This document shows, in pieces, positions 61,548-64,000 of a stretch of 64,000 nt of DNA. A model generated the notes under the pieces. The model saw nothing but the letters and a program-made list of their open reading frames with translations, did not search any database and was not told the origin of the DNA. The translations under genes and the position numbers were made by a program. The stretch comes from an uncultured Olsenella sp. (lineage in GTDB: Bacteria; Actinomycetota; Coriobacteriia; Coriobacteriales; Atopobiaceae): positions 62,001 to 126,000 of the forward strand of contig CASEHX010000026.1 of NCBI GenBank assembly GCA_949287905.1, in the 5' to 3' direction. Position 1 is the stretch's first letter. Every line of letters begins with the position of its first letter.

Positions 61548-62270
61548 CTAGACAGTTTCGGTTCCTTCGGTTCCAACTTCGTCAAAGGAGAACTCAACAG
61601 AGTCCGGGCTGTCAACTCTCATTACAAAGCAGCCGTTGTCAGCCGAGTTGTTCATATTGAAACCGCCATAATAGGTTTCATAGATTGGTGCGGTTTCAAC
61701 AACGCCAAACAGCTTCAGTTGCCAACCATCGCTCCAAGCAGAGCCGTTCATGTCCACAACGTCTCCGTCGTTGACAATCTGATACTTATCAAAGTCACCG
61801 AAAACAAGGGTTTCGGAAGTTACGTTGTTGCCGCTATCGTCGGTTTCAAGCTCTACCGTTTGAAGCGTTGGGTTCCCTTCGAAGAGGTAGTAGGGGTTGC
61901 TATAGTCGTGATATTCCGACTTGTACTTCTCATCCTCTTCGGTGAAAAGCTCGACAATCTCATCATCGGACATTTTGCTAAGCTCACCAAGCTCGGCGGT
62001 AACGTTGCTGCGGAACGTCATGACGCCGGATTCGAAGACATAGAGTTGAGCCTGTGCATCCTTAGCCACTTTATCCACGACGAAGAACAAACGCCGTCCA
62101 TCGTCGTTTACGAGTGAGAGTGGAGTGATAACTTCTGAGACAGCTTGCTCGGAGGCGGGGGAGTCTGACTCTTCGGTGGAGGCATTGTTACATCCGCTCA
62201 GACTTGCCGCACCCAACATCCCAATGGAGCAAGCGAGCATGAATGTTCGTCTTGATACCGCACTATCCAT
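61548..62270 (-). CDS. Twin-arginine-like lipoprotein
   Basis: This 240-residue protein has a signal start SRRTFMLACSIGMLGAASLSGC with two arginines and a lipobox LSGC, so it is exported, possibly by Tat, and lipidated. The mature acidic domain is unknown, with beta-rich strands. It is one of two adjacent lipoproteins inside the prophage, opposite to the late genes, a position typical of lysogenic conversion genes. Confidence 0.8.
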   Translation of the reverse strand: MDSAVSRRTFMLACSIGMLGAASLSGCNNASTEESDSPASEQAVSEVITPLSLVNDDGRRLFFVVDKVAKDAQAQLYVFESGVMTFRSNVTAELGELSKMSDDEIVELFTEEDEKYKSEYHDYSNPYYLFEGNPTLQTVELETDDSGNNVTSETLVFGDFDKYQIVNDGDVVDMNGSAWSDGWQLKLFGVVETAPIYETYYGGFNMNNSADNGCFVMRVDSPDSVEFSFDEVGTEGTETV

Positions 62271-62287
62271 CTTAGTCTCCCGTCATC

Positions 62288-62731
62288 CTACTCGACAATG
62301 AAAGCATCTACGAGACGCGATTCAACCTGTACATATTGGAACTTGCCGCACACCGTAATCTCTTGCTCCTTGGACAGGCTTGCCAGTTCGTCTTCGGACA
62401 ACTCAACACAGAGGGTGTTGCAGAACTGTCCAAGGATAAGCTGCCCCACACGAACATAGGTGGGGTTGATATCCCCGACAATCGCAGTGCAATGGAAAAT
62501 CTTACCGTCGTATTCCTGCTTTGCCTTCGCTTCGTTCTCGCTATCCATTTCGTGAAATGCTTCTAAGTCGAGTTCCTCCGCTTGTTCAAGCATCTCTTCT
62601 TGCGATGGCTCTTGGGATTCAGATTCAGCATTGCCACCAGTTGAAGGATTACCGCCGCAAGCCGAAAGTCCGAGAGCACCGGCGAATCCAAGAGAGCCAA
62701 GAATAAAGTTTCTTCGGGTTAGGTTCGTCAC
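62288..62731 (-). CDS. Twin-arginine-like lipoprotein with OB-fold domain
   Basis: This 147-residue protein has LTRRNFILGSLGFAGALGLSAC, two arginines and a lipobox, then a 30-residue acidic linker and a small beta domain (YDGKIFHCTAIVGDINPTYVRVGQ) like tRNA_anti-like OB folds. Such small surface lipoproteins can act in adhesion or superinfection exclusion. It lies directly upstream of the 240-residue lipoprotein in the same transcript. Confidence 0.77.
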   Translation of the reverse strand: MTNLTRRNFILGSLGFAGALGLSACGGNPSTGGNAESESQEPSQEEMLEQAEELDLEAFHEMDSENEAKAKQEYDGKIFHCTAIVGDINPTYVRVGQLILGQFCNTLCVELSEDELASLSKEQEITVCGKFQYVQVESRLVDAFIVE

Positions 62732-62757
62732 AGCTCGCTCCTTTCGTGGTTGGTTTG

Positions 62758-63234
62758 CTAAAGGTTTTTAGCCGCAGAATTCCCCGCAATCAGCAGCAGG
62801 ATGGGGGGCACTATCATAAATGGAACTACCATTATCCAAGTTGTCTCACGGGTCATAAAAAGGAGTCCTGCAAATACAAAAGAGACGGCTGAGAGAATCA
62901 TGCTGGCGGTATTCAAGCCTTTGCTTTTGCGTTGTCTGTTGACTGTCTGTAGGACGGAAGATATGAGAGGCAGGAGTCCGCCCGCCATAATGATTATGGC
63001 AGGCGTCGAAATTTCGAGTAGTTTATCTATGGAGCCTGAGCCATTCATTATGTAGTCAAAATTGCTGATAAGAGTAACGAGGGACAGCAGGACTATCAGA
63101 ACAGAAATGACGCAGCCAACCAATACCAGAGAAAAGTGTGTCGAAGATGGTTTCAGCGAGCACCCGCAGTTAGGGCACGCCTTCGCGTTATTTGAGACTT
63201 CCTTGCCGCACTCAGGACATTTAATAAGTGCCAT
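62758..63234 (-). CDS. Zinc-ribbon membrane protein
   Basis: This 158-residue protein starts MALIKCPECGKEVSNNAKACPNCGC, a zinc ribbon with two C-x2-C pairs, then four hydrophobic segments (LVLVGCVISVLIVLLSLV, TPAIIIMAGGLLPLISSV, ASMILSAVSFVFAGLLFM, IMVVPFMIVPPILLLIAG). The start after GGAAGGAGC is preferred over an upstream in-frame one. Function unknown. Confidence 0.78.
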   Translation of the reverse strand: MALIKCPECGKEVSNNAKACPNCGCSLKPSSTHFSLVLVGCVISVLIVLLSLVTLISNFDYIMNGSGSIDKLLEISTPAIIIMAGGLLPLISSVLQTVNRQRKSKGLNTASMILSAVSFVFAGLLFMTRETTWIMVVPFMIVPPILLLIAGNSAAKNL

Positions 63235-63317
63235 ACCTGCTCCTTCCAAAAGCAGCCCGATAGAGACTGTGGAAGAAGCCCCGCGCATCAAACAGTGAGG
63301 GGGAGTCTCCGCCCACA

Positions 63318-63445
63318 GTTGCCACACTGCCCTTGGTGTTCACGGTATACGTGAGTCACATCAGGGAGGGAGAAGACTCCCCCTGACTAGAGACTCACGG
63401 AAACTATGTTGTGAACACCACCCGTTAGGGCGGCAGTGTGGCAAC
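63318..63445. ncRNA. Rod-like inverted repeat structure, possible structured RNA
   Basis: Four nested stems enclose one another: GTTGCCACACTGCC with partner at 63432-63445 (14 bp), TGGTGTTCAC with 63411-63420 (10 bp), GTGAGTC with 63392-63398 (7 bp), and TCAGGG...CCCTGA closing a short AAGA-type loop. All pair exactly. Strand and function are unknown. The 325-base gap 63235-63559 otherwise holds only a minus-strand terminator. Confidence 0.55.
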
Positions 63446-63493
63446 TTGGATTCTAGCAGAGAGCACCGCTATTGACACTGAGCCAAGAGCTAA

Positions 63494-63525
63494 GAAAAAG
63501 GGACGTCCCGCAAGGGGACGCCCCC
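63494..63525 (-). terminator. Minus-strand intrinsic terminator
   Basis: Read on the minus strand, GGGCGTCCCC and GGGACGTCCC form a stem of about nine pairs with one bulge, followed by TTTTTC. It lies downstream of the gene at 63560-63835 and fits as its terminator. Confidence 0.65.
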
Positions 63526-63559: not shown

Positions 63560-63835
63560 TTAGTTAATGCGGCTGAACAGCTCAATCTGTTCGTCGGAGA
63601 ACGAGCTGACGAGCTGCTGGACGTGCTCAAGCCAATCCCCCGCATCGCCTTCGTCCTCGCACGCATACAGGTCAAGCAGGGCGGCGTACTGGTTGAAGTT
63701 CAGGCTCTTAATGAAGTCCTTCACGCTGGCACCAGTCCACAGCTCGACGCTACGCTCACCCGCTTCGAGGTTGTTTGCCGTCTCCGCCACATAGTAGAGC
63801 GTCTTGACCTGCTCAACAGCCGTGTTGATGTTCAT
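63560..63835 (-). CDS. Small unknown phage protein
   Basis: This 91-residue acidic helical protein begins MNINTAVEQVKTLYYVAETANN after an AAAGGAAAA site; a longer in-frame start is less likely as it has no good ribosome binding site. The segment FIKSLNFNQYAALLDLYACEDEGDAGDWLEHV is predicted helical. No family recognised. Confidence 0.7.
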   Translation of the reverse strand: MNINTAVEQVKTLYYVAETANNLEAGERSVELWTGASVKDFIKSLNFNQYAALLDLYACEDEGDAGDWLEHVQQLVSSFSDEQIELFSRIN

Positions 63836-63918
63836 GATGTTTTCCTTTCTGCTAGGGCTGCTGTGTTGACTAGCACTATAGACGGGACAAAACAAAGTGG
63901 GAAATGCAATGCAGTGGA

Positions 63919-64000
63919 CTACGAAGAAAAGTTTTCGCCCTTCCCCCAAGCCGCGTTGATTTGGTTTTCAAGTTCGTCCATCTTGCCGTTGAGTTCCAAA
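63919..64000 (-). CDS. C-terminal end of a minus-strand gene (partial)
   Basis: The last 26 codons of a frame that continues past the window, ending with a coiled-coil-like tail GKMDELENQINAAWGKGENFSS. Its stop lies 83 bases upstream of the small protein start, on the same strand. Too short for function. Confidence 0.45.
   Translation of the reverse strand, partial: LELNGKMDELENQINAAWGKGENFSS

Follow-up and report, generated by a model that had tools for sequence, protein, structure and literature searches.

A candidate cis-acting leader RNA family of Coriobacteriales with covarying loop and tail segments

The window, by which we mean the whole 64,000-nucleotide stretch of DNA from an uncultured Olsenella sp. 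that was analysed, carries a minus-strand operon in which a zinc-ribbon membrane protein gene is followed by two lipoprotein-like genes, and in front of this operon lies a palindromic element (Table 1). Read on the minus strand, the leader runs from an extended -10 box through the 5' arm of an outer helix (P1), a small hairpin (P2), a long arm (P3) with the segment X at its apex and the 3' arm of P1 to a tail segment Y, a Shine-Dalgarno sequence (SD) and an ATG at 63234, the SD and ATG lying ~85 nt past the rod. The terminator at 63485-63525 separates the upstream gene from the leader promoter. As this gene has a terminator of its own and no T run follows the rod, the rod was rejected as an intrinsic terminator.

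Table 1. Observed and predicted features of the leader region and its operon (positions of the window)
Feature	Position	Strand	Remarks
Intrinsic terminator of upstream minus-strand gene	63485..63525	minus	GGGGCGTCCCCTTGCGGGACGTCCCTTTTT-type hairpin and T run, read in the sequence
Extended -10 promoter element (putative), TGCTAGAAT	63450..63458	minus	ends 3 bases before the outer arm
Element, first seen as a rod	63318-63445	minus	128 nt
P1 5' arm, AGTTGCCACACTGCC	63432..63446	minus	15/15 pairs with 63317-63331; ~2 nt from the inferred transcription start site (TSS)
P2 side hairpin, GCCC-UAAC-GGGU	63420..63431	minus	folding and alignment
P3 arm	63335..63419	minus	9-10 bp stem (63411-63419/63335-63343), 8 bp stem (63392-63399/63350-63357), apical hairpin
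X, apical segment, AGTCAGGGGGAGTCTTCT	63371..63388	minus	complementary to Y, covaries; family consensus RRAGGGCAUCUGCC
P1 3' arm, GGCAGTGTGGCAACT	63317..63331	minus	pairs with P1 5' arm
Y, tail segment, GGCGGAGACTCCCCCTCACTG	63293..63314	minus	inverted repeat and own-versus-swapped pairing; consensus GGYGGAUGCYCUYCUY
SD hairpin, CUUCUUCCA paired with Shine-Dalgarno UGGAAGGAG	63240..63278	minus	conserved in the window's close group, weaker family-wide
First gene after the leader, 158-aa zinc-ribbon membrane protein	62758..63234	minus	Pfam Zn_Ribbon_1, hydrophobic segments
Two further lipoprotein-like genes (147 and 240 aa), same operon	61548..62731	minus	88.9% identity to the G226 operon

The minimum free energy of 63318-63445 is -75.1 kcal/mol as compared to a mean of -39.7 for shuffled sequences (z -9.23), and none of 200 shuffles was as stable. 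An earlier note on this DNA had described nested perfect stems of 14, 10 and 7 pairs with an apical hairpin. The fold was confirmed, with an outer stem of 14 exact pairs (15 counting 63317/63446), a 10-pair stem (63334-63343 with 63411-63420) and the apical hairpin, but the inner stem has 8 pairs, and the small side hairpin P2 turns the predicted rod into a three-way junction. This junction is predicted in 71 of 100 family members, and the pairs of P3 show changes on both sides among relatives. That the rod has no coding function, as the note also held, agrees with our reading of the GTG-started frame that enters from 63327 toward the zinc-ribbon gene: since a stop breaks the same frame in G011, a relative of the same genus, we regard the rod as non-coding, and a conserved leader peptide starting at this GTG was ruled out.

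As the extended -10 box stands immediately before the outer arm, the rod would form the first 128 nt of the mRNA. The consensus of the box, UGnUAnAnU, is kept across the 100-member alignment, with a third base of the hexamer that varied in the training set, as is typical (TAGAAT, TACAAT, TAAAAT, TATACT), and a -35 region that is weakly TTGACA-like; among family members P1 begins a median of 2 nt from the assumed start site. Four complete copies exist in the genus, two in G002, one in G011 and that of the window, and homology among them spans the -10 box (TGnTAGAAT) to the start codon. The proteins encoded behind them differ, as does, in G011, the context on the upstream side. Homology that persists in front of differing proteins points to an element comprising approximately the first 128 nt of a minus-strand mRNA. 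A putative promoter upstream and a gene start downstream on the same strand is the arrangement by which a cis-acting leader is recognised; transcription, its start site and the folding of the leader we infer from the sequence. In some members (L018 1653-1740; L028/L029) the sequence of the P1 5' arm recurs past the rod as a third copy (GUUGCCACACUGCC / GUUGCCAAACUGUC), which might compete for pairing with the 3' arm.

Relatives were collected with covariance models in three rounds, R1 built on 4 sequences, then R2, and R3 on 20 sequences with the tail included. R1 found a divergent member in G015, R2 found members across the order, and R3 gave ~118 matches in 76 of 397 Coriobacteriales genomes and 39 of 123 genera, with up to 7 per genome. 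A few model matches were discarded by eye (L037, L040, L043-L045), and one locus that had been set aside in R2 (G351b, C207) proved a good R3 match of 82 bits and is counted among the 100 members. The window genome has a single copy and its relatives several; Olsenella uli An820 and Olsenella sp. SW781, of the order Coriobacteriales, are the genus mates that carry names. When 346 Actinomycetota genomes sampled across the phylum were searched, every match fell within Coriobacteriales. The family consensus reads UGnUAnAnU ... RCCAnA ... RRAGGGCAUCUGCC ... UnUGGYRACYGnGGYGGAUGCYCUYCUY.

Neither the window nor 36 further loci holding members reached the gathering score of any of the 4227 models of Rfam 15, the lookalikes mir-627, Ocean-VII and suhB remaining far under it. 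The literature searched, mostly open-access papers, yielded no description of a Coriobacteriales leader; PMC2864571, PMC6429828 and PMC8632094 contain Collinsella-1 alone, and this is an Rfam family with no match to the element. The element is likely, when its proposed regulatory role is counted in, to belong to a cis-acting leader RNA family that had gone unrecognised and that is confined, as far as searched, to Coriobacteriales. Its conserved structure and position have good support, and it would form a new class within a known kind, the cis-acting leader RNAs.

Conserved pairing in relatives, whose absence had been named beforehand as refuting, was looked for and found. With 5 sequences 15 of 45 pairs were changed on both sides, which no shuffle out of 500 reproduced, and with 20 sequences 18 of 26 were. 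At 100 sequences compensatory changes occurred at 25 of the 26 modelled pairs (0/500 shuffles), with a covariation of 0.704 versus 0.205 shuffled and 93.8% of cells paired versus 65.6% shuffled and 34-44% in slid controls; as the alignment was fitted to the model, and so leans toward the model structure and the conserved X and Y letters, these pair counts lean toward the model to an extent that the slid controls bound. P1, with a median length of 13 bp, is paired in 99.3% of cells and compensated at all 11 modelled positions across the 100 members. Its mismatches comprise 35 G-U and 5 A-C, an excess expected if folding occurs on the transcript strand. A structure maintained by compensatory changes is what would be expected of a structured cis-acting leader RNA, and the suggestion of a structured RNA or leader in the earlier note is upheld by the covariation in 100 relatives, by the conserved extended -10 box and by an SD and start codon in 95 of the 100.

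In nearly all members the complementarity of X and Y extends over 12-22 bp; in a few (e.g. L170, L175) it is shorter. In 21 leaders the own X-Y pairs beat all permutations (0/20000), and in the 80 members outside model building own pairs reached -31.1 kcal/mol versus -25.8 for swapped ones (z -14.4, 0/5000). The same preference holds within single genomes that harbour 7 paralogues, where own pairing was reached by 2 of 5040 permutations in G284 and by 56 of 5040 in G285. As X of a given paralogue pairs better with its own Y than with that of another copy in the genome, the X-Y pairing most likely occurs in cis, and on the same ground a shared trans-acting sRNA pairing with X or Y was excluded. 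One of the G285 copies has a different X and Y (AAGGGCUUCCACC / GGUGGAAGUCCUU). In a nested energy calculation, which does not allow pseudoknots, the rod came out 5-20 kcal/mol more stable than the X-Y fold in almost every leader, G002a being the exception. Folding of P3 back along P1 as a pseudoknot would let most of the rod and the X-Y helix coexist.

At the other end of the leader, the SD is predicted to lie in a strong hairpin in the window's group, where its occlusion is clear. The SD of 16 leaders was less accessible than that of 136 control genes (median 0.12 versus 0.37, p 3e-4; p 0.024 for the 11 non-redundant leaders), whereas over 70 leaders the median was 0.27, so that occlusion is weak family-wide. 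Pairing of Y with the SD did not exceed that of a swapped Y (0.063 versus 0.068). As own and swapped pairing are equal, the simplest switch is not supported, and we rejected Y as an anti-SD sequence that X would release. In the loci that were read, the stretch from the element to the gene showed no intrinsic terminator platform.

An SD-preceded ORF lies downstream in 95 of the 100 members, with its start a median of 78 nt past the model, and 5 have no called downstream ORF. By a simple hydropathy/lipobox rule 61% of these 95 ORFs carry an N-terminal export or membrane signal, as against 23% of control genes (p 1e-15). The Pfam domains found include zinc ribbons, BspA-type LRR, cell-wall-binding repeats, List-Bact repeats, SHOCT, ankyrins and an EcoRI-type methylase, and a few of the proteins match defence-system models. 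Genes as diverse as these suggest no ligand. The assortment of surface proteins, lipoproteins, small membrane proteins and some defence or mobile-element genes suggests one shared signal for many accessory genes, and the leader family probably controls the surface-protein and accessory genes in front of which it stands. Recurrent among the products are small membrane proteins, some of them with SHOCT, that bear an A(R/K)KKGYS...LPDR-like motif (L010 6975-7277, L036, L032, L062, L164).

Several members mark one edge of an element that encodes a tyrosine integrase and a DNA invertase, and one directly follows tmRNA; others are plainly chromosomal, e.g. beside prfB/secA in G285. Comparison of window positions 61548-63458 with L055 5985-8150, from G226 of another family, showed a leader that is 92.4% identical, a first gene that differs, and second and third genes with the 88.9% identity given above, over 1257 bp. 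As the two loci share the leader and genes 2 and 3 and not the first gene, the leader behaves as a transferable module. This modular exchange adjoins integrase and DNA invertase genes.

The explanation that we favour, and consider probable, is that an mRNA begins with the element, which belongs to a leader RNA family exerting post-transcriptional control of the downstream gene. The first transcribed bases would form the 5' arm of the long P1 helix, which would usually open into the three-way junction with the short P2 hairpin and the long P3 arm. In the folded RNA X would then pair with Y, whether in a loop-tail pseudoknot for which P3 bends back along P1 or in place of the upper part of P3. 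The leader may in this way expose or hide the translation start in response to a ligand or protein, or alternatively protect the 5' end of the mRNA. Pairing by itself is no proof of regulation.

Post-transcriptional control by the leader could take the form of a riboswitch, a sub-hypothesis in which the junction and the loop-tail pseudoknot make an aptamer for a small signalling molecule and the ligand changes access to the SD. The architecture, the multi-copy distribution and the diverse regulon resemble those of second-messenger riboswitches, and the SD is occluded in the window's group. With orphan riboswitches and the cis-regulatory leader classes of Rfam the element shares a 5' leader position with the putative promoter immediately upstream, a predicted three-way junction with long-range complementarity and strong covariation, and many copies before a functionally biased set of genes; it differs in having no Rfam 15 match and in an unusually long X-Y helix. 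Usual riboswitch pseudoknots are far shorter than 12-22 bp. As SD occlusion is weak across the family, Y pairs with the SD no better when own than when swapped, and the conserved bases lie mostly in helices and in X and Y with no obvious pocket, we regard a riboswitch as possible but doubtful.

Alternatively, the leader may be a 5' stability element, in which the near-blunt 5' helix, the junction and the X-Y pseudoknot would mechanically block the 5'-to-3' exonuclease RNase J and render the mRNAs long-lived. Leaders of the ompA type likewise base-pair the extreme 5' end of a surface-protein mRNA, but these stabilisers are simple hairpins without conserved loop-tail complementarity or a family-wide consensus. 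Similar in topology is the flaviviral xrRNA, which stops bacterial RNase J1 in vitro (PMC5760640) and in which, as proposed for our element, the apical loop of the last arm of a three-way junction pairs with sequence just 3' of P1. The predicted junction and the covarying X and Y are compatible with this topology, and the presumed pseudoknot would complete it. As P1 begins close to the inferred start site and the window genome encodes RNase J, a stability role modelled on xrRNA is a serious rival. It is nonetheless a rather unlikely one, since xrRNAs lie inside transcripts and thread their 5' end through a ring, whereas our element has much larger arms, would sit at the 5' end of a bacterial mRNA and would have its own 5' end paired at the base of P1.

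Binding of the leader by a regulator protein specific to Coriobacteriales would fit the lineage restriction and the long helices with conserved elements; yet no candidate regulator gene was seen, and the covariation of X with Y requires RNA pairing besides recognition by a protein, which makes this reading unlikely.

A DNA-level element, be it a recombination hairpin resembling integron attC, an invertible promoter, or transposon ends or a MITE, is very improbable. The palindromic arms, the diverse downstream genes and the integrases and DNA invertases often found nearby are in its favour, and attC sites too are imperfect palindromes with conserved ends that precede diverse accessory genes. 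However, the conserved -10 box lies outside the arms, whereas an invertible promoter or an attC site has its promoter or cassette within the inverted repeats; X is oriented the same way in every member; Y covaries with X although it is not part of the palindrome; the G-U to A-C asymmetry of P1 is a wobble asymmetry of the transcript strand; and some members sit in chromosomes away from any integrase. An insertion with terminal repeats, such as a MITE, was rejected because homology continues past the arms, beginning at the -10 box and reaching the start codon. Weakest of all is the replication or packaging signal of a prophage, which the earlier note had entertained and which we consider scarcely credible: prophage tail genes do stand next to the window copy, which lies just past them, but homologues are spread over chromosomes and integrative elements, many members being chromosomal, blastn of the 1.3-kb window region found nothing among 50,697 phage records (INPHARED) or among plasmids, and exact-pattern scans of IMG/VR gave no real member, the 5 pattern matches (L184-L188) scoring nothing with R3, so that the element was met in no phage or IMG/VR record.

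Returning to the favoured leader RNA family, it is conceivable, if tentative, that it serves as a lineage-wide control device of Coriobacteriales, in which a single fold, placed at the very 5' ends of dozens of unrelated mRNAs of surface and accessory genes and containing a long loop-tail pseudoknot, acts either as an exonuclease-resistant structure or as a sensor of one common signal and travels between genes and mobile elements as a ready-made cassette for expression. The family also raises a structural question, that of whether a long loop-tail pseudoknot placed at the start of an mRNA serves to sense a signal or to block decay. The order, which includes Olsenella, Eggerthella and relatives, is mostly gut-associated and contains common gut bacteria, and a leader family of more than 100 members that is absent from Rfam offers a testable handle on surface regulation in bacteria that are hard to study.

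The 7 leader copies in each of G284 and G285 (L056, L057, L105-L125) stand mostly before large secreted proteins that share an MR(S/A)SVAxR-type start. A natural deletion mutant occurs in G002 (C111, L010 6874-7005), a partial copy in which the 3' half of the rod and Y are lost; the deletion ran between CTTCTCCC and CTTCTTCC, two CTTCTYCC repeats, and the copy precedes a SHOCT membrane protein gene beside a prophage 86% identical to that of the window. Small genes lie upstream of the leader in the window (63560-63949) and in L011 (7920-8234, minus strand), the protein of the latter having no PHROG or Pfam match, and proteins with an FNHTLQECR motif recur beside the G002 copies (L008, L010).
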